From contig NSJX01000027.1 of NCBI GenBank assembly GCA_002286715.1, positions 1 through 64,000 of the forward strand: a DNA stretch of 64,000 nt. Direction: 5' to 3'. A program made the position numbers and the translations under genes. Origin of the DNA: Dentipellis sp. KUC8613. Its lineage: Eukaryota; Basidiomycota; Agaricomycetes; Russulales; Hericiaceae. The notes under the pieces are model-generated. The model made no database searches and was not told the origin of the DNA. It was given only the letters and a program-made list of their open reading frames with translations. Each line of letters begins with the position of its first letter. Within the stretch, counting starts at the first letter, position 1. Of the stretch, positions 6,421 through 28,621 are shown piece by piece.

Positions 6421-8863
6421 ATGTCATGTCAAGCATGTCGCCAATCGTCGCTACATCCTGCCCCTCACCTCACATGCATCATTTTCGCCCAACTCCTCCT
6501 CATTTCATCCGCGCTCTCCGTCTATGCAGCACCACTCACTGACCCCGCCAAGCGTTCCATTGTCCGTCGAGATGCAGGTGGCGGTAACGTGGTACAGATC
6601 GTGGTATGCATGCCTTGTGTTCATCCATCTGAGACGTCCTATTCACAAGACATGATATTACTAGGTTCCCGTCGTCGTCGTCGTCATCTTTCTCGGTAGC
6701 GCTCTCTTAATCATCATGATTCGCAAAGGGGTCTTCAGCAAGTTCTCTGGCCTGCTGTCTACTATCTCGCAAGCACTTGCTCCATCCGGACGCCATGCAA
6801 CAGCAAACAACCAAGTGCGTGAGCTCACTGCAGAAGAGATTGCCGGGCCTGCCGCTGTCGCTCAGGCTCGACCTGCGGCGCGGACGCGGCGGAATAGGCG
6901 TACACCGAGTCAAATTTCTACGAGGTCGCTACCCGTCTACATGAAGGAACCAGGCGAGCACGAGCTGGTGATTATACAGTAAGCAGTCATCTGCCTTTGT
7001 ATCGTCTGCCGTATCTTACCATCTCCGCGTCGTGACAGGGGCTCGCAAGATATGGAGGATGCACCCGTGTCGACTCATATAATGATGCCGTCCGTTCCCG
7101 AGAGCGACAGCGAGAGCATAAATCATTCTCGCAACATTTCCCAGTCCTCTTCGGTTTATGTGGTCGTACCATCCAATGCACATGTCCAAACTCCTCTACT
7201 CGAAAATAACGAACATAACGATAATGACAATGGCAACTCGTCCGAAATGCCCACACCGGACGTCACGAATGAACACTCTACTTCTCCTCCACGTATCTCT
7301 CATGACAACGAACCAAACGAAAGTCGGGCCGCTCTTCTCCAAGATGCATCCCCGATTCCCGATATACGTGGCGATGCACCACCCTACTTCGAGGTCGTCG
7401 GCAGTACAGCTGACGAGTCTATCCTCCGTAGTTCCAATGACCTCACCCGTGCTCAAATCACCCGCAGCGAGGCCGAACCACGCGTGTCGCTCAGCACTAT
7501 GCCTAGTCGATCAGTCGAAAGTCCCATTCCAGAGTATCCTACTACCGGGACGGAAACCGTTCGTCGTCGATCTATGTTCCGCGGATTCATCCACGCGGCA
7601 TCTCATGTACTCGCACCCCGCACTGCTCCTCTACCCACAACGAATGCTCGTCCATCGCAGGACTCTGTCCACTTCCTACCCGCTGCTGCCTCTGCAATTT
7701 CTCTTACGAGCGATACCGTTCCCGAGGGTGCACGTGCAGCATCAGCTTTGAGCAGCAGGCAAGGACAAGGGCACCGGCCGTCATTTTCCGGCTCCGCATC
7801 TGCGTTCAGCCTCTCATCCACGCCCTTCCGCACTGTTTCTCGGACGCGGACGCGTTCAAACTCCAATTTCCAAGCTGGGCACCTTAACTCACCGTCAACT
7901 ATCTCTATCAACTCCATCTCCTCGCCCCTTACCCACACCCTCACGCGGACAGATTTCGTGTACCCCAAATCTGGACCAACGCCTGAGCAGCTCAAGCTCA
8001 TCTCATCGCGTGAGGCAGTAGGCAAGTATGGAGTACCATACGGTCCCGACGCAGTGGCATACGTTGCCTCGACATCACGGCTAGATCTACATGGGCCTTC
8101 CCCGGAGTATGACGTACTTACGGAACATCGCCCTTCGATAGACGGTCTCCCCGCCGTCGGATCCTCTGGACTAGGCCACATCAGGAATCATTCTCGATTG
8201 GACCAGGAGCTTCGGAACGATTCCCCTACGTCGTCGTTGTCGGAACCGCCTGTCAACTCCAATAATGGCACTCCGGCCCAAGCAACGACAGCCACAACAC
8301 AGGACGCCGTTCCAGAGTCTCCAGTCATTCAATCAATGCCTCCGGAGACAGCTGCGAAGCAAGACCAGCCAGGAGGACTTCAACATCCCGAGCATGCTGA
8401 CAAGCCAGCCTCCTTTTCAGAGCTCGAGACAACGCAAGCCCATCCCGAAGAATTAAATCCCAATGTCGAGATGCGCGAGACTAACGAAAACTTGAATAAG
8501 GGTTCCCAAGACATCTCCTCTCCTCCTGGTCTAGAGTCGCCTACTCCCGCGTCGAGCCACGGAGCGACTAAGCCGACAAACCTCTCCAGCGCCCCCACGG
8601 CATTCCGCATGCCCACAAGTCCCTTGGCCGGTGTACGATCGGAGTCGCGCGCCAGCTCATTGTCGTATGCTACCGCCGACACCTCATTCCCTGACACACC
8701 AATGACTCCAGAGATCCGTACACCCGAGACTCACGCCTCGAGCTTGACTCTGGCTGCGCCGTCGCTTGCATCGGATACGGATAGTCCTCCAACACCCCGT
8801 GCAGAGCAGGATGCAGGTCTTCGTAGCCTCCAGGCCCAAGATGTCGCTCCCGTAGCACTCTAG
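6421..8863 (+). CDS. Single-pass membrane protein with long disordered cytoplasmic tail
   Basis: Three exons (6421-6603, 6665-6978, 7039-8863) give 773 residues. Residues about 18-36 form a signal peptide (core IIFAQLLLISSALSVYA). A very short external segment of about 25 residues with two dibasic sites (KR at 44-45, RR at 49-50) follows, then a Val/Ile/Leu-rich transmembrane helix at about 62-80. The remaining 690 residues are Ser/Thr/Pro-rich and predicted disordered. A short conserved-looking motif, SLPVYMKEPGEHELVI, lies at about residue 150. The topology resembles fungal surface sensor or polarity proteins such as Axl2 or Mid2, but with almost no ectodomain, and I cannot assign a function. 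I chose the Met at 6421 because it gives a normal signal peptide. An in-frame Met at 6352 lies inside the pyrimidine-rich leader and is less likely. Confidence 0.8.
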
Positions 8864-11493: not shown

Positions 11494-14400
11494 CTACGAT
11501 GCAGATCCCGCTCCGCCTTCACGCGAGAGCCGGTCGTTCACTTTCGAGCGGTGCAGTCGGTTCCTCAGGTGAACGTCAAAGTTGTTGAGCGTCTCGCCAG
11601 GGCCAGGCATATATAACTGCATAACAGAGACGGGTCAGCACAATCCGACAAAGGCGACTGCACAAAACTGACCTTGCCGGGGCAGTCCAAGCACTTGATG
11701 CGCCACTGCATGGCACTGCCAGGAGTCTGGCGAGGCAGGAAGTCAAACCTGTCATTCGGGTATTGGGTCAACGAGGCTGCCTTGGCCTCCGAAAGCCATT
11801 CTGGCAATGTTGTAGACTGCTGTTCAACGTCCCGCCGTCAGCACCTTTTGCCCCACTTGGCCACAACAAAACATACCGTGATTGGTTGGTTGGGGGAGCT
11901 CGGTCCGTCCATATTCGGCGGCGCAGACGCGCTGGCGAGATGCTCAGGCGGCGGTGTCCCGTTCCGCCTCGGCTCTGGCGAATCCTGGGGGACCGAGGTC
12001 GGAGGCGCAGACTCTGCCTTGGACGCGCCGTTCATTTTCATCTTCTGCGCCAGCGGGGGCTCTGAAGCACTGGAACTTCCTCCATCAGACGCAGGGGATG
12101 CCGGCCGCTCGTCATCCATCCTCTGCGCCGCATCCGTTGAGCGCCTAGAGGTGGCATCTTGCCAAGCGTCGCCCTTGCCCCGCGGGGCAGGCGTCTCTGG
12201 CTCCGCGGCAGCGGCGGGTGTCGACACCTCTTGGTCTCCGGCTGGAGTCTGCCCAGCGCGCATGGCCGCAGCAGCGCCTTTCTTCTTCGACACCGTCTTG
12301 GACCTCTCCGCCTCGTTTCGCTGGTGGAGATGGAAATCATGGTCCGAGTTGTAGACGACAGGCCTCGGGCGACGGTGTCTGTGCCAGAACTTGCCTGCAC
12401 AAACTCGTCGATAAGCGCATCTCCTCAAAGACGAAACGTGGCACATACCACAGGTACCGCACTGCGACTTGTCGCCCAACGGGCCCTTCCGGCGCCCGAT
12501 GGCGATATCCTCCGGACAACCACAGTTCGAACAATGCCAGACACCATTGATCATGTTCGCGTGCTGGCCATCCGCAAAGCCCTTCTCTTTCGCCTCGCGC
12601 TCCAGCTCCTTTGCCCTCTTCGCCGAGATAACCCTGGTCGCCCTACTGTCCGGGGGGGCAGACGGCACCGGCGCAGGCGGGTCGTTCTCCAGAGGGGGCG
12701 GCAACAACGAGGCGTCCACGGCAGTCGACGGCGTCGGCGCAGTGATGTGGGCGCGGGGGCGCAGCACGTGGCTAGGGTACTGGGGCGACTTGAACAGGCC
12801 CTTTGGCTTCTTTTCCTTTTGCGCCGGGGCGGGCGTCGGAGTCGCCATCGGCAGCGTGGGCGTGACGACGGCGGTCCCGTTCTCGGAAGCAACCATGTTG
12901 GCGATGGTCAGGGACGCTGCCGCTGCCGCCGCACGCCTCGATGTCGGAGCCGCGGCAGCCTGCTGCAAGGCCAACACGGCGGGATCGACGTCGGGGAAGC
13001 CGATCGCCGGCGTGCGGAAAGTCTTTGCCGGTTCGCGATCGGGGAGCGCGACGCCGCGGCGGCCACGTGTGTTGCGCTTGCGCCTGCGGTTAAGTTCCTT
13101 CTCGCGCTCCTTCTCGTTCCGCTCGATCTCGCTGTCGGACAAGTAATTGAGGAGCGGCGTGAAGGCTTGCACTTGGTCCATGGCGCGTGCGACAGACTGC
13201 ACGGGCGAGAGGAAGGACATGCGCAGATCGTCGTCCTGGACCATCGTACCATCGGAGGGATGGCCAACGAGGAACAGTGACTTCTGGTATGTCTGCACTT
13301 GCTCACGGATGGAATGCGCGATCGCCGTCCTGTCGGAAGCATGAGCGTATGACATAGATAGCCGAGTAGAATTGTATGCACCTGAATTCTCCTCCGAGGC
13401 CCAGCTCCTTCGTGTACACCTCCGCAAAGTGCTCAGGGGAGGCATCGGGGTTATCTATATCCCACTCGAACTGGTCATCGAGCTTCATCGAGCCAACGAT
13501 GATATCCAGCTAAGATGCCGGTCAGACACATGCAAGCGATCGCATTTGATAAAGGAGCACGAACCTTAATCACGATCCGCATCTCCTCCTTCATGTCGTC
13601 CATGTCAACATCGGTGACATCGAGGGACATGTTGACATCGTTATCCTTGTCCTTGTCCTTGCTTTCCTTGGAGCCATCAGCGTTGGCGGGTGCAGCAGCG
13701 TTTCCAATGACAGGGCCAAAGACATCCTCCTTGACGTCCTTGGGTTCCTTTTTCGCCTCGTCCGCCATCACCTTTCTCCTCTTCCTCCCAGTCCTCCTCT
13801 TTGCGGCGCCGCCCCGCGTGTCTTCCACCTGCTTCCTCCACCCCTCCCACCACGTCGCATCCCCGCCGTCCTCGTCGAGGCCGCCCTTCATGACGATACC
13901 TTCATCCTCGTTATCGGCATCCGTCCCGTCCGTCGCCGTGTGCGCACGGAAATCGGACAGCTGATCCTGAATAGACTTGACGATGACGGAGTGGTACATC
14001 GGGGCGAGGCTGTAATCGTCGACGATCGACTGCGCGAAGACCTCGGGCGTGATGATCGGGTCTACACACGGCGCACACGGAAACGTCAGTCCACATGCCC
14101 CCAGACAAGCAAGCGCCAGCCCGCGGACGCACCATTCAAGTTCCACACAAACGTATCGCGCATCTTCTGATGCTCGACATCAAACTCGAGCCGAATCGGG
14201 ACGAGCTGCTCCGTGCGGTCCGCGTCCTCAGGCTTGACCTTGCTCGGCCTGCATGGAGATGTGGAATGAGCACAGCACTGTGCACGCTACAAAAGGAAGC
14301 TTACAGCTTGAACCCCTCTCTCCGTCCCCTCTTCCGCCCCATCTCCTTCAGCCTCTGTCCGGGGTACGTCACGCTGAACTTGGCCGGCCGCTTTGCGCTC

Positions 14401-20851: not shown

Positions 20852-23800
20852 TTAGTCCCGCTCAAGCTTCACCCGCTTCGCCAACTGGCCCGAGTCCAAG
20901 CCTGCACTGACAGCGCCATTTTCATCAGGCGCCTGCCTCTTCTCCCCAGCCTTCCCTAGTTGTACAGGTGGTCTATATTTCTCGTCCGTCACAGCTGCTA
21001 GGGCCTTCCGACTCGCAGGGGTCGAATTTTTCAGGGTATGTTGACCGCCGTCGGACTGAAGAACATGATTGGGAAAGTGCGTCCGCAGCGAGTGCAATAT
21101 ACTCGTCGCAATCGCCTTGCTCAGCAGCGGCGGGACGGCACTCGTGATCTGTGCATATTGCTCGTAGCGAGATCCACTGAATCGATGGATATCCTGAGAC
21201 AATCACGTAGAAGAATGAGGGCCGGATGGAGCTCAGATGACGCCCGCGACGTACCGGGAACGAGACGATTCTCGCAAGCTCCCGTGGGGATAGATACTCA
21301 TCGGTGTGTTCTGCAATTCAAACGTATTAGACTCATTCAACTCCCTACACCACAATGGCTGCGCAACTTACTAGGATGGCGACGGGGCAGGCAGTCCGAA
21401 ATGCCCGTTGGAACTGGTTGAAAAACAAAATCAGTCATGATTCCGCTTTGAAAACCGAGGATACATACGCGGATACGGCCCATCATAATCCGCAACCGGT
21501 CTCATCGCCGAATTGCCCTTCCACCCCGTACTATGATGGCTCACCATCCTGTCCTGCTTGGCACCCAACATCAGCGCATAGGCACTCGGCTCCTGGGTCT
21601 GCTGATCATCCGGAGCGGTGCAGTACACGCTGCGTCGTCTGTCGGATGCGTCTGCAGGCTGTCGGGGATTGCGCCATTCGAGGTCCTGGATCGCGTCGCG
21701 GACGGTATGGAACGCGGGATCGCCGTGTGTCCTCTTGGGCCACTCTGGAAGAGGCAAGCCGGCAGCGGATGCGAGTAGGACGAACCGTTTGCTTGTCGCA
21801 GCAACTCCATATTCCGCGATGTCCAGCAGTCTGTATGAGATCGAATATCCTTTCGACAACAACTTCAATTCCATCACGTGGAATTCGCGCTCGTATCGTT
21901 GGGCCAAAAATGCCTGGGATACATGGTGTCAGCGGACTGGGAATTTCGTCAGATATGGGACGTACCGGTTGGCCGAATATACACTAGGGTGAACAGCGGC
22001 ATAATAGTCGTCAACACCATATACATCACGGCGCGGCATTGAACGTACCACAAGTGCAGGCTTCATCAAGCCGATCCCCCGTTCGACCATCCTCGTGAAA
22101 TGCTCCATTTTCTTGCTATCATTGCTGCATTCAAGTGGTGCACACATGGACAATACAGTGACGGGGCCTGGCGGGGCTATCTTCTGAGCTTCAACGTCAT
22201 CAAAGAATACCTGAACATCCTCAGCGTGCACTGGAGCATCGGGGAAATTGAACTAGTAGTCAAGGTTGTCGATCAGAAGGACACAATAATGACGGCATCT
22301 TTGTGGACAGACTTACCTGCCAGCTAGTGGCCGCATCCACTTGTTCCTCAACGGCGGCAAGGATGTTGAAACCTGCAGCATCGAACCCTCGCGCGACACC
22401 TCCACAGCCAGCGTAGAGGTCCACAACCGTGGTCGTACCTATGGTAGAAGCATTATAACCAGAATTAGCTTTTTTGTTGGAGATTGTCAGCGTTTCGCTT
22501 TTGGTGTCGCCCGACATCAGCAGAGACCAGTAATGGATGTCGGGTGATCCATCGGTATCCGTAGCAGCCTCTTGTCGTATCTTGATCTTTTCAAAATTAG
22601 AGCCCTCTACGCAGCGGAGTACATGTTCATAATCGAACTTGCCGCATTCCGGGTCACCGTGAGGCTCGAGGAGCTTGATAAGTTCGTGTCCAGAGGAATT
22701 GGGCGATTCGCCGTAGGCCGCCTTGAAATACTCGGCGGCGAAGATGTACCGCGTCGCTAGGACGTGCGTTGGTGTTCCAGATTTCGAGACGACCTTGTGG
22801 ATGAACATCGCCATGCGAAAGCCGTCGATACTGAACTTATACGCGCGCCGGCTGCGGATCCGTGCCGCGCCGTGACTACTTGAGCTTTGTGGAACACGAG
22901 ACGAGGTGCTATTGGATCCCTGACTTTCACGAGAGCCGAATAACGTCGACAGCATTGTCTATTATCATGGGAAGCATTGAAGTCAGTATTGAAGAGGAAT
23001 AGGCCGCGGAAGCGGGGATTCAAGAAAGTAGACTTACTTGCAGTCGTGTTAAGATACTGGTATCAGTCTCAGCATCATTCCGTTGATAGATGTCCTCATG
23101 ATTATGGCCATTGTCAAGGTTGTGGTTTGCATCAGCCTCCATACCAGCGTCCGAGTCGCTATCGGAGAAAGCATCTGCGTGACCAAACGACATTCCATCT
23201 GTGGAATCTGCCCTCCATGGAGCGCGTGGGAGGGAGGTTGATGGGACGGGTGAGACGTTAAGGGAGTCCCTTTGCGGCGCAACGGGACTTCGCGTACGTG
23301 CTGCTACAGACGGAGAAGGACGCCGAGGCGGGGGAGGTTGCTCCTGCGATCCGGCAGATGAGACGTGAGGAGGTACGGGAGAGGACGAGGCAACCGAGGT
23401 GCTTCTTGTCTGCTCCTTTGACGGCTCTGGATGGATCGGTGTATTCCGAGCGGCGCCTTCAAAAGGCTCGAGACAAGAAACGCCGTCAGATGAACAAGAT
23501 GTGATGCGGATGGTGTGGATGCGTGCTTCATTGACCTGCCCATCCCAGCAACATTCCGAAATGTGTTCATGCTCGTCGACAATTTCACCATCTTCTCCCA
23601 ATAGTGCGAGACTATACCGCGCTGCCCCAGGGGCAGCATCCCACTGGATATGTGCAGATCCAGATGACAATGATTGAAACAAAAACCCAGTGACGGGTAG
23701 AGGCGGGATTGTGAGATCTAGCGGGCTGCTCCAGATTGCGGCTTTCGAGTTACGAGGTGCTGTGCAAACCCTCACTCGATATCGAGTCCCTGGAGTAAGA

Positions 23801-26088
23801 TCTGACAGTATGATAGACGGTCCAGAGCTTGTTCTGTGTTGGCTCGCATTGATTTCTGTGTTATCCAGTTAGGCAGATTGCGAGCACTGAAGGCAAATGG
23901 CTTATACCTCCATCAACGTCGGGACCCGGCTTGTATACAAGCTCACCATCTAGTGGGATGTTGGGAACGTGTTCTTCAACACATATCCTGAATCCGCGCG
24001 GACCGGACACTGCAACAAGTGTTGACCAAGAAACGGTGACAACGGACGGAACACTGAACACATGACGGAGGTTGCGAGGCATCTGTGCGATGAGGAGTCT
24101 TTGGAGAAATTTAAGCTGCTCCCGATTGGACTGTGAAGCCTTGATCTCGTCTGCAAGACAAGTGACAATGAGCAGTGACGCACAGTCACAGTAGATAACT
24201 TCCGCTGAAGTGTCTTCGTCTTCGTTGGGCTGTCCGATTGAGCAGGCATCAGGACCCGGTTTCCTATGGACATACTCAGAATTGAGCAGATTCGCGCTGA
24301 GATGGATCTCATCCCCCATCACAGAGATCTCAAGATTGTCAAAGTGAGCCGACTTGAAAGAATATGACGAAAGGAATCGCAATGTTCGAGTGTCCAAGTG
24401 TAGTAACGCCCGGAACGAGTGGATCACATGTTTGACATAAAGTGATCCAACCTCATCTGGCTGAACGGGGGTAAGGGAATGAAACATCTTCTTCTGAGCT
24501 TCCATTGGAGTCATGATAGTCTTGTGGGCACGAAGCGCATGGTACAATGTCTTGCTGATGAGCACAGGCTCCTTGTGCAGATATTCCTCGATAACATGCC
24601 TTTCATCACTTGTCTCTTGTGCGTGATAGAAGAATGCATTGTCGACATGCTGCTCTCGTAAGGTCGCCAGGAGCACCTTTGCACAGGCAGGGCTGAGACC
24701 TTTTATGCCTTCTACATCGAGAGCCCTCTCGTGATCCTTCAAGAGTGCCAGATATCGGATCCGTGTATCGTCAGAAGTAAGGAGAAGTGGCTGCCATATG
24801 TTGAAAACTGCTTCAGCAGCGTGGCTTCTATCCTCCAAGGCTGAGCGATCGCGGCTCATCGAGATATCGCCCGCAATGTTGATCCCATAGACGAGTCCAG
24901 TAGTTTGATCTGTTTCCAGCCGCACAAGTATACCCTTTACCTGGGGAGAAATACATAGGAAGTTAGGACGTTATACGATACATATGAATGAACAGGTGCT
25001 ATACATAAATATGGGAGCGATGTCTCTCGTCTAATAGTACGCAGCCTTTCGTCCACCCGGTGTCCTTGTCGCTACAAAGAATCTCTTTCGGTGGCCGTAA
25101 GAAAAGAAACCGATCAAGCCCCAGACTATTCCACGGTATATTGCGAACTTGCACAAGGACACCATTGACATTTCGTCTAGATTTCTTCTTGAAGAAGAGC
25201 AGGTGGTCGCGCAGGTAACCAAACACCCAAATCTGGTGTTTCGTGTGGTACAGTACCCTGGCTTCCTCTCTCATGAGGGCATTGATACCTTGAACATTGA
25301 ATGTATAAATGTATGACACAATTTGAAGGGTCGCTAGACATACCTATTTTCAAACCGTCACCATACTGCCCTATTAGATGAGGTTTCGAGCCTTTTGAGG
25401 TTCCCCCGAGATACCAAGAAGAGTAAGAGATGGATCCAACATTGTACAGCTCCAGATCCCCGAAGCCAGGTTTATCAAGTGATGGCTTCCAGGCAACATA
25501 TCCGACAGGCTCTGAAACTTCATCCGAGGCCGAGGCGATGGAGGTGTCATAGAGAAAAAGTTCGACAGACTCTGAGTTCAATGGCAATTCAGTGTCAGAT
25601 GTGCTCCCAACAATTGACTTCCCTTTATGAAACTCCTCGACTCGAATCTGATGTGGAAGCACATGACGGACATCTAGTATAGCATCAAAGAGATTTTGCA
25701 CCAGCTCCCGGACTCCAGCTGCCGAACCCCATGTACTAGACGAGGATCGGGATTTGCCGTAGTCGCGGTGCATGTTCAGGCCGTGCATAAGTGACCATGA
25801 GACGCTCAGTTTTCCGTTTTCGCGCCAGTAAGGAAATTTCTGGGGCCTAGAGTTGCCCCCAACTTTCCATGGCCGAAGTTTCGGAGGCGGTCTGGTAACA
25901 GAGGAAGTACGAGGTGCAGCCCGAGGCTTATACTTTTTCACTAGATACCAAAGACAGAAAGTCAACATGTTTCTCTGATAACAACAAAATCGGAACTGCC
26001 CACCTGTCTGTGGTTCTTCCGAAGATTCCGAGTTGTCAGTCGTGTAGTCGGAGTCATCCTCGTCACTAGACTCTGCAGAGACGGGCAT
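20852..26088 (-). CDS. GHKL (MORC/Hsp90-like) ATPase - FN3-like - cytosine-C5 methyltransferase-fold fusion protein
   Basis: Twelve exons keep phase throughout (26088-26004, 25940-25344, 25288-25005, 24940-23908, 23855-23038, 22958-22317, 22252-22049, 21983-21966, 21913-21469, 21413-21372, 21310-21255, 21193-20852) and give 1,521 residues. After an acidic N-terminus comes a GHKL ATPase: N-box RELVQNLFDAILD (about 106-118) and the glycine-rich lid HLIGQYGDGLKIG (about 216-228), then HIYVKGILV. Around 667-790 lie fibronectin-III-like segments (LTPGTRYRVRVCTAPR). The C-terminal 400 residues are a DNA methyltransferase fold. SAM motif I is VVDLYAGCGGVARGF (about 1115), and motifs IX-X are LSPRELARIVSFP and YAQITSAVPPLLSKAI (about 1396-1437). 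The usual PCQ, ENV and QxRxR motifs are replaced (see findings), so it is probably not catalytic. A C-terminal tail carries basic KRVK. A nuclear chromatin role is inferred. The 18-nt exon at 21966-21983 is the weakest call. I know no named family with this domain order. Confidence 0.85.
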
Positions 26089-26750: not shown

Positions 26751-28621
26751 ATGCTGTCGTCTCAGACCGAATCGTATGTCTTCTGCATTGCCTATCCAAC
26801 CGACACTCAACAAGTCGTAGTGGCTTGCAGGAACCGGCCGCAGCGTTCGAGAACGACAGCGACGAAGGGCAGACTATACGAGCCACGGGAAACACCCCTC
26901 AACCCGAGGCACGATGTTTCGCGTCTCTGGCCTCTTTTGACCTAACTATTTTGTAGGATTCTGCCACTACGGAGACGTCAATTGCGGCACGATTGCCGAC
27001 CGAGATTCTCCTCCAAATATTTGTGGATTGTGTTGACGAAGAATTAGACCCTGCCACTATTGGCTACTCCGCTCACTTCATCCGACAACTCACGCATGTC
27101 TGTCGCTCCTGGAGGGAGATTGCGATAGACTATCCTGCATTGTGGACAAAGGTGGCTTTCCTCTCGTCGCCAATGACGTCCTCAATGCTTGACCGCTCCA
27201 AGTCAGCTCTCCTCACCATCCATGCGAACCTGACGCCAGACTATCTATGTCAATCTGGCCGCTCTAGCAACAAGGTATTCAAGCGTGTGCGCCATGCACT
27301 ATCCCATGCACCCCGCATCAGGGAGATAACTCTGCAAAGCCGATCCTGCATTGATTTCTCGCGTCTCATAAAAGACTTTCCGACTAGTCTTCCAAACCTA
27401 GAATCCTTCACTCTGAAGGCTGTTACGCACGAGAATCAGGCCGCCTTCGACGTACCACAAGAGCTCTTCAAGCATGATACTCTCCCTCTCCATCAACTTG
27501 ATTTACAGTGTTGCTCCATCCCAGAATCACTTCTCAACGTCCTCCCTTCGCACTGCAGCGTGCTCACTCGCTTGGAATTGCATCACGTAGCGCCTCTTAC
27601 TCGTCAAGGAATTCTTCGTATAGTTGAGGCAGCAGCCGGCAGCATCGAAATTCTGGTTCTTGACCATGTTTCGTCCTTCACGTCGCCTTTCACTGGACCT
27701 GAACATGGTGTAGCTCTCTCTCTCCCGCGTCTCTCGAGTCTACATCTCCGTGGCAGGGCAGAAATTACTTTCTGCCTCCTTCGCAGTTTTACAATTCCTT
27801 CTGATAGCCGCCTTCGTCTCGAATTTTGCCTTTCAGTGCTTACGCCTGCTTTCCGTTACTCCCCACTCGCGAAACATTCCAGTTCTGGTTCACCCGTTCG
27901 CAGTCTACTCTTCCATCATGCCCCGCAACAGCTTTGCGAACCCTACGACCGTGGTCTTCGCCTCTTGGGATATACCGAGACTGCAACACCGGAGTACTAC
28001 TATGCAGAGCCCGAAGATGCAAAAGTAGACATTCATTTCTCTTGTTGGGAGGATCTAGAGCGCCATATCTTGACCGATACCCTCCTCAAGTTGTGGCGTG
28101 CTGTGGTCAATAATGGAAAGGAGGTACACGCCGTGACGATTGCACGCATCAGTTGCATCTCTACTGCCGTATGGTCACAACTCCTCAGGAATGTGCCTGA
28201 AGTGCGGGAGCTCTGCATACATGGCTCCCCTGCACTGAGAGCCTTGTGCGCAGTCCTTGGTGCCTACACACCCGCCATAGGCGATGCTACTCCTTCGACC
28301 CCTACGTCGTCGATGCTGTCGCTTCCGAGCTTACAGACGTTGACTGTATGCGAGGGGGCGTTCCGCTCGTTTCCATCGCACAGGATGGGTTCGGGGACGA
28401 GGGGCGTTGATTTCGAGGCACTAATGACGTGCTTGGAGGCGCGGAAGAATGCAGGGAAGAGGCTAGAAAAGTTGGTTGTGTGTTATTCTGATGCAAGTCG
28501 CAGTGACATGGAGGAGCTTGGTACAATGGTGGACAGGTTGGTTTGGGACGGCAGCCTTTTTGGGCGTGACAGCATACCCATCCCCGATATCACCCCGAAA
28601 GACGTAGACGACCGTGAATGA
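26751..28621 (+). CDS. F-box protein with leucine-rich-type C-terminal region
   Basis: The main exon, 26957-28621, encodes 554 residues. It begins just before an F-box, ARLPTEILLQIFVDCVDE ... LTHVCRSWREIAIDYPALW. The rest shows irregular leucine-rich segments (LRRLELHH-like, FTLKAVTHE), typical of the large family of Agaricomycete F-box proteins. Such proteins link a substrate to the Skp1-Cullin1 ubiquitin ligase; the substrate is unknown. The 5' end is uncertain. The best phased proposal is 26751-26773 joined to 26831-26915 and then 26957, but the donor at 26916 (GTTTCG) is weak. The stretch 26831-26910 also reads well in another frame (EPAAAFENDSDEGQTIRA), so the first exons may differ. Confidence 0.75.

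Follow-up and report, generated by a model that had tools for sequence, protein, structure and literature searches.

How does a mushroom come to carry, on one polypeptide chain, an ATPase of the GHKL type, fibronectin type III (FN3) domains and a cytosine-C5 DNA methyltransferase fold, and does such a protein methylate DNA? The question is raised by a gene on the reverse strand of a 64,000-nucleotide stretch of the basidiomycete Dentipellis sp. KUC8613 (hereafter, the window; positions 1 to 64,000 of contig NSJX01000027.1, in an assembly of 34.1 Mb and 171 contigs). A preliminary description of the window had read here a MORC/Hsp90-type ATPase followed by FN3-like segments and a methyltransferase fold, with methylation activity implied. 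The gene is real and conserved, and it is better described as a phage-type GHKL ATPase plus a pseudo-DNA-methyltransferase: judged by sequence, its ATPase belongs to the phage and plasmid family phrog_6077, and its methyltransferase fold is without the catalytic motifs. This domain anatomy is well supported.

20852..26088, (-) strand: whole gene, 12 exons, start to stop codon, 1521 amino acids, identical to DENSPDRAFT_840926

In-silico splicing of the 12 exons gave a single open frame of 1521 amino acids plus stop, with the start at 26088, the end of the stop codon at 20852, all 11 introns bounded by GT..AG and no internal stop. In a search of ~5.8 billion proteins, the predicted protein (P0001) matched DENSPDRAFT_840926, a Dentipellis sp. 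KUC8613 protein labelled 'hypothetical protein' by NCBI, with 100% identity and 100% coverage. The exact splice frame and the identical deposited protein together confirm the coordinates, the number of exons and the single frame given in the preliminary description. All 17 of the matches to P0001 in the genome, among the best-scoring candidates, fell on this gene or on a paralogue (P0002) located outside the window on the same contig, ~51 kb away and inverted relative to the window gene (C92:77438-82578, (+) strand). Of the 10 exons of the paralogue, four (284, 204, 18 and 42 nt) match window exons exactly in size. Its nine introns correspond in order and phase to window introns 2-10, so that 9 of the 11 window introns are common to both genes. 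It has no counterpart of window intron 1, and where window intron 11 sits the deposited P0002 protein reads through a 57-nt stretch (19 residues) that is probably an unspliced intron left in the annotation.

Queries with the whole protein and with its N-terminal part revealed two other fungal relatives, one in Artomyces pyxidatus (P0003, both halves) and one in Hericium alpestre (P0004, a fragment that begins at the RDR motif and covers the end of the first half and most of the second). The family thus comprised four proteins from Dentipellis, Artomyces and Hericium, genera that we take all to belong to the Russulales; both halves are present in three of the proteins, and the fourth is a fragment across the join. 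This fungal range is a lower bound because each protein search scored the 7,979-7,995 candidates with the most common words, and remoter fungal relatives may be missed. A division into two genes within the intron 23037-22959, the alternative named in the preliminary description, was unsupported, given that an intron of matching order and phase occupies this place in the paralogue, that both halves occur in the Artomyces protein and that the Hericium fragment spans the two.

The N-terminal half was compared with profiles of viral proteins, among which its nearest match was phrog_6077, a family that carries the label 'unknown function' in PHROGs. The module and its motifs are located as follows.

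24632..25812, (-) strand: GHKL ATPase module of phrog_6077 type, about residues 72-425, exons 2-4 (introns 25343-25289 and 25004-24941 inside), from hhalign and phrog_6077
25678..25710, (-) strand: N-box RELVQNLFDAI, residues 106-116 (E107, N111, D114), from motif reading
25435..25455, (-) strand: G1-box equivalent LELYNVG, residues 191-197, in the NxG form, from alignment
25344..25380, (-) strand: lid HLIGQYGDGLKIG, residues 216-228, with its last two bases (25288-25287) in exon 3, from motif reading
24836..24859, (-) strand: MSRDRSAL, residues 350-357, aligned to (L)DRDR in the viral family, from alignment

Against a profile of ten viral members, the fungal GHKL module aligned over P0001 residues ~187-473 with an hhalign probability of 99.7% (E 4.3e-26); this stretch begins downstream of the N-box, which aligns in the multiple alignment instead. 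The phrog_6077 profile of PHROGs matched P0001, P0002 and P0003 with E 3.4e-8, 8.4e-12 and 1.7e-11, respectively, and P0004, which is without the GHKL part, had no PHROGs match at 1e-5. The N-box (ExxxNxxD) and the lid (GxxGxG) were invariant in the three of three fungal proteins that include them. The assignment to GHKL follows a chain that leads from the fungal proteins to the viral family, from there to plasmid members of the same PHROG, and from these to the Pfam HATPase cut-offs. The plasmid proteins L079, L080, L083 and L084 matched phrog_6077 with E 4e-26 to 2.9e-90 (1.3e-88 for L083 and 9e-34 for L084), and 3 of 6 plasmid members scored above the Pfam HATPase cut-offs, which anchors the family as GHKL. 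Of the MORC/Hsp90-type assignment, the GHKL type therefore stood and the MORC identity was unsupported, as the Pfam GHKL families matched neither P0001 (E ≤ 1) nor the three fungal members (E ≤ 10) and the nearest relatives found were those of phrog_6077. A PDB sequence search returned no GHKL match for the fungal N-terminal half and no match for the viral family, and among the 50 Foldseek matches listed for the fungal model, which were FN3 or receptor-ectodomain structures, none was GHKL.

Relatives of the fungal module are spread among phages and plasmids. A fungal-sequence profile detected relatives in 15 of 60 matched stretches of viral contigs, and tblastn with the paralogue domain matched 130 of 50,697 phage records at E ≤ 10 (best E 4e-6 among the matches listed); against plasmids the fungal sequence matched 3 of 72,556 records, with a best E of 0.2. 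With a viral query at E ≤ 1e-5 the family was found in 110 of the 50,697 phage records and 7 of the 72,556 plasmid records, and 23 of 81 viral stretches contained a member. Stretches of genome contigs collected with narrow patterns had a member in 1 of 150 cases with the viral profile and in 0 of 83 with the fungal profile; given how narrow these patterns are, and given the plasmid members, we do not claim a mainly viral distribution. The tree of the GHKL family, a drawing without support values, placed the fungal proteins on a long branch, and for both reasons no donor is named. Names differ among the phage members (L048, L075 and others), from 'putative histidine kinase-like ATPase' and 'hypothetical protein' to 'RIIA lysis inhibitor', and 'ATP-binding protein' also occurs as a label in this phage and plasmid family. 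An RIIA identity, raised by these labels on some members, was dropped because T4 RIIA matches other PHROGs, and by this comparison the name looks mis-transferred.

Two motifs were followed across the family. The G1 box has the DxGxG form in 5 of 6 plasmid members, and a crude pattern for NxG was matched by 3/3 fungal, 17/23 viral-contig, 2/5 named-phage, 1/1 archaeal and 0/6 plasmid members. A derived G1 box linking fungi and phages was set aside as weak, since NxG is frequent and not fixed among the viral members. A HExxH motif was invariant in the ten viral members behind the profile and occurred in 21 of the 35 non-fungal members examined, which include truncated ones (16/23 viral-contig loci, 5/6 plasmid, 0/5 named phage and 0/1 archaeal metagenome-assembled genome), and in 0 of 4 fungal proteins; being frequent but not universal, as the named phages illustrate, it does not define phrog_6077. 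In loci with a C-terminal HExxH (L051-L065, L069 and plasmid L079 and L081-L084), the GHKL ATPase is joined to a possible zinc protease. By eye, the GHKL module of plasmid L082 and L083 stands in tandem before the HExxH end, where Pfam reports two stretches in each.

On plasmid pSR56 of Salinibacter ruber (L079), the family ATPase gene is flanked by the S and R genes of a type I restriction system, and a SprT-family protease gene follows R. When methylase-gene neighbors were sought with a crude motif scan, 2 of 33 loci were flagged and the type I methylase annotated at the Salinibacter locus was missed, so a general tie of the ATPase family to methylase genes was set aside, the scan being unreliable. 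This plasmid locus, the 110 phage records, the small number of fungal relatives found and the duplication in Dentipellis would suit a genome-conflict or self/non-self protein with a phage-type ATPase at its base, directed against transposons or viruses and not at routine silencing. We consider this explanation rather unlikely, as the restriction link is a single case and both folds are under strong purifying selection (see below).

The C-terminal half carries the methyltransferase fold, in which the following features were located.

21068..22445, (-) strand: C5-methyltransferase fold without catalytic motifs, residues 1111-1450, exons 6-12, from PF00145 and the DNMT1 profile
22383..22427, (-) strand: motif I VVDLYAGCGGVARGF, residues 1117-1131, conserved, from motif reading
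22112..22165, (-) strand: motif IV equivalent PVTVLSMCAPLECSNDSK, residues 1183-1200, no PCQ, from alignment
21966..22069, (-) strand: motif VI equivalent LMKPALVCIFGQP, residues 1215-1227, exons 7-8 (intron 22048-21984 inside), no ENV, from alignment
21110..21151, (-) strand: motif X QITSAVPPLLSKAI, residues 1423-1436, with Ser where DNMT1 has Asn, from alignment to DNMT1

PF00145 matched the window protein over the full profile with E 2.5e-22; in the four-member scan the match had E 4.4e-23 over positions 2-323 of the 324 in the profile, and all four fungal members matched, in agreement with the fold named in the preliminary description. The motifs quoted there (N-box, lid, motif I and motif X) are likewise present at the residues given above. 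Among solved structures, DNMT1 came closest in both sequence and fold (profile E 2.4e-26; Foldseek), with a weak structure model of this half (mean pLDDT 42.8). Motif I, for S-adenosylmethionine (SAM), had the form D-[LF]-YAGCG in 4/4 fungal proteins. A motif scan detected PCQ, EN[VI] and QxRxR nowhere in the four proteins; the PCQ loop is replaced in the alignment to DNMT1, and the motif IV segment is without Cys in two of the four. The preliminary description had overlooked this loss, which leaves the methylation activity that it implied unsupported. Conservation of motif I and motifs IX-X, together with the Glu at the place of ENV and both Arg of QxRxR that the Artomyces protein retains, would fit a working ATP-dependent DNA methyltransferase with relocated catalytic residues, but the absence of all three motifs from the four proteins, and of a motif IV-segment Cys from two, makes this very improbable.

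A search of the genome with PF00145 found four other loci, with the paralogue as a fifth match. In crude six-frame scans, in which introns may hide the rest, these four loci had ENV in 4/4, PCQ in 1/4 and a fitting QxRxR in 2/4, and the ENV motifs suggest that active methyltransferases are probably present in the genome. Their presence, and the retention of the scaffold while the catalytic motifs were lost, would be consistent with a regulatory subunit whose dead methyltransferase half pairs with an active resident DNMT under the control of the GHKL half. DNMT3L, for comparison, assists DNMT3A. Such a subunit is unlikely in our view: the partner interaction is hypothetical, and a search with the Artomyces domain (resident DNMTs were not in the alignment) retrieved no close active parent, its matches outside the gene family having 24-28% identity (one had 64% over 9% of the query), with 24% for the sole named fungal one, Xylaria.

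If the fold is not used for methylation, it is nonetheless preserved. Between the paralogues, the methyltransferase domain had an amino-acid identity of 0.66 and a dN/dS (ratio of nonsynonymous to synonymous substitution rates) of 0.12, and the GHKL core 0.69 and 0.13; elsewhere these rough ratios were 0.14 (part after the GHKL core), 0.27 (FN3 domains), 0.25 (linker), 0.21 (region before the methyltransferase) and 0.53 (C-terminal tail), with 0.88 in the short N-terminus at a dS of 0.77. Within the methyltransferase domain, identity between the paralogues was best in motif I (0.82) and IX-X (0.81) and lowest in motif IV (0.33), the IV-VI segment (0.50) and motif VI (0.56). The corresponding values against Artomyces were 0.76 for motif I, 0.60 for IX-X, 0.50 for IV, 0.47 for VIII, 0.38 for the segment resembling a target recognition domain and 0.25 for VI. 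As read from these alignments, the overall pattern is that of a fold retained for a purpose other than catalysis. The strong preservation of the fold despite the loss of its catalytic motifs suggests that the protein binds or clamps DNA and does not methylate it. The loss of the methyltransferase triad, and of the HExxH motif of many prokaryotic ATPase relatives, could also be read as the mark of a functionless protein, either a relic in decay or a chimera of the annotation. This is highly improbable for a family of four proteins from three genera, of which three have both halves and the fourth spans the join, with an exon structure common to the paralogue, dN/dS values of 0.12-0.13 in both folds and no internal stop.

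Between the two halves, and at the C-terminal end, lie the remaining parts of the protein.

23440..24079, (-) strand: two FN3-type domains, about residues 610-805 (intron 23907-23856 inside), from Pfam fn3 and Foldseek
22866..23439, (-) strand: linker, about residues 806-970 (intron 23037-22959 inside), amino-acid identity to the paralogue 0.35
22446..22865, (-) strand: region preceding the methyltransferase, residues 971-1110, no BAH match
20855..20878, (-) strand: C-terminal basic tail KRVKLERD, residues 1514-1521, letters read from the sequence

The FN3-like segments of the preliminary description were borne out: read across the junction of exons 4 and 5 they scored 29.6 bits with Pfam fn3, above the cut-off of 25, and two of the three members scanned had a match. 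Foldseek also aligned the two domains to pairs of FN3 domains; the model has a pLDDT of 38-79 in the first domain and 79-91 in the second. A BAH domain was suspected by eye at residues 971-1110 and rejected, as none of four members had a Pfam match at E ≤ 10. The KRVKLERD tail is presumably nuclear-localisation-like, and the paralogue and the Artomyces protein also have basic stretches close to the C-terminal end.

Given these results, we propose, with roughly even confidence, that the gene encodes a pseudo-methyltransferase retained as a binding module, with an ATP-gated GHKL switch to drive it. As a rule, GHKL proteins form dimers on binding ATP. The N-terminal phrog_6077-type module would serve as the ATP-binding switch, and the tandem FN3 domains and the flexible linker as an arm; ATP binding would most likely dimerise the N-terminal modules or close them, as happens elsewhere among GHKL proteins, and the dead methyltransferase domain would hold DNA, a nucleosome or a partner. 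The whole protein may thus act as a non-catalytic chromatin clamp gated by ATP. The N-box and the lid, both conserved, appear to fit ATP-driven dimerisation, and the altered G1 box leaves room for doubt. We infer ATP binding and dimerisation, binding of DNA or a partner, and a nuclear location; a silencing role is a guess drawn from the parts of the protein. The clamp with a DNA-reading module envisaged in the preliminary description is possible in the form of a non-catalytic reader. More tentatively, a phage- or plasmid-type ATPase may have entered the mushroom lineage and been fused to FN3 domains and a methyltransferase that lost catalysis, and may now work as a reader or clamp of DNA methylation state that is gated by ATP and independent of MORC, a chromatin factor put together from phage-type and methylase parts; this fuller history is conceivable and on balance doubtful.

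Several observations weigh against the ATP-gated clamp. Its mechanism is one that we infer by analogy. Most of the GHKL part of the structure model has a pLDDT of 25-58, which makes the GHKL fold a prediction from sequence, and NxG in the G1 box instead of DxGxG makes ATP binding itself putative. The model is also too poor after the GHKL module, where a MORC would have its S5 domain, to bear on that feature. The loss of the motif X Asn makes SAM binding doubtful. The dN/dS ratios are rough because dS between the paralogues is saturated (1.4-2.9 outside the short N-terminus). The motif VIII segment is well kept between the paralogues (0.78), and against Artomyces the order of conservation is less clean, with motif IV not among the lowest segments. 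The Artomyces copy, with its retained Glu and both Arg, has decayed less.

If this account is correct, fungi, which are reported to have lost MORCs (PMC2292703), would possess a GHKL chromatin factor that is no MORC, and its DNA-binding part would derive from a dead methyltransferase carried on the ATPase chain itself. The protein would offer a tractable example of how an ATPase might read DNA methylation, and would make it possible to approach, in a eukaryote, a protein family of phages and plasmids that has no known function.

Two other matches in the window are near the gene. The stretch at 11841-13454 on the (-) strand, ~7 kb away, has a match of the SNF5/SMARCB1 type, a type of chromatin-remodeller subunit (Pfam E 2.3e-12), and an open frame at 26957-28618 on the (+) strand, which adjoins the gene on the opposite strand, has an F-box-like match (E 1.6e-9).

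A search of mainly open-access literature by title and start of abstract found no publication on this architecture. A review of fungal DNA methyltransferases covers DNMT1/Masc2, Dim-2, RID/Masc1, DNMT5 and DNMT2, and the word GHKL is absent from its main text (PMC7862722); the main text of a survey of basidiomycete DNA methyltransferases is without the words HATPase, GHKL, fibronectin and Dentipellis (PMC5073141). To the extent that the review describes them, the domain order differs from that of the named fungal classes, as the preliminary description had claimed (PMC7862722). DNMT5 resembles the window protein in having an ATPase and a methyltransferase on one chain, but its motor is of the SNF2 type and it maintains CG methylation (PMC7862722); neither half of the window protein had a Pfam SNF2 match at E ≤ 1. 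Methyltransferases of the DNMT1, DIM-2 and HaeIII type share with it the fold, motif I and the order of motifs IX-X, with DNMT1 the best match in the PDB, and differ in the PCQ, ENV and QxRxR motifs that the fungal protein lacks.

Among ATPases, MORC and paraMORC are described as GHKL ATPases tied to DNA methylation or restriction-modification, and MORCs are stated to be absent from fungi (PMC2292703). The prokaryotic MORC and paraMORC genes adjoin methylase genes, so the methylase there is the product of a neighboring gene, whereas in the fungal protein it is a fused domain (PMC2292703). The fungal protein also differs from MORC in having no MORC-specific profile match. T4 RIIA is similar as a phage protein with an N-terminal GHKL domain, and an overview of jumbo phages mentions orthologues of it with that domain (PMC7824862). 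Some phrog_6077 members are annotated RIIA as well, but T4 RIIA itself matches PHROGs 612 and kin and not 6077 at E ≤ 1, and its G1 box reads DFGPG. The phrog_6077 family aligns with the fungal proteins from the G1 strand via the lid, VKGI and RDR to fungal residue ~473, and in the N-box too; the fungal proteins differ from it in adding the FN3 domains and the methyltransferase fold, and in being without HExxH.

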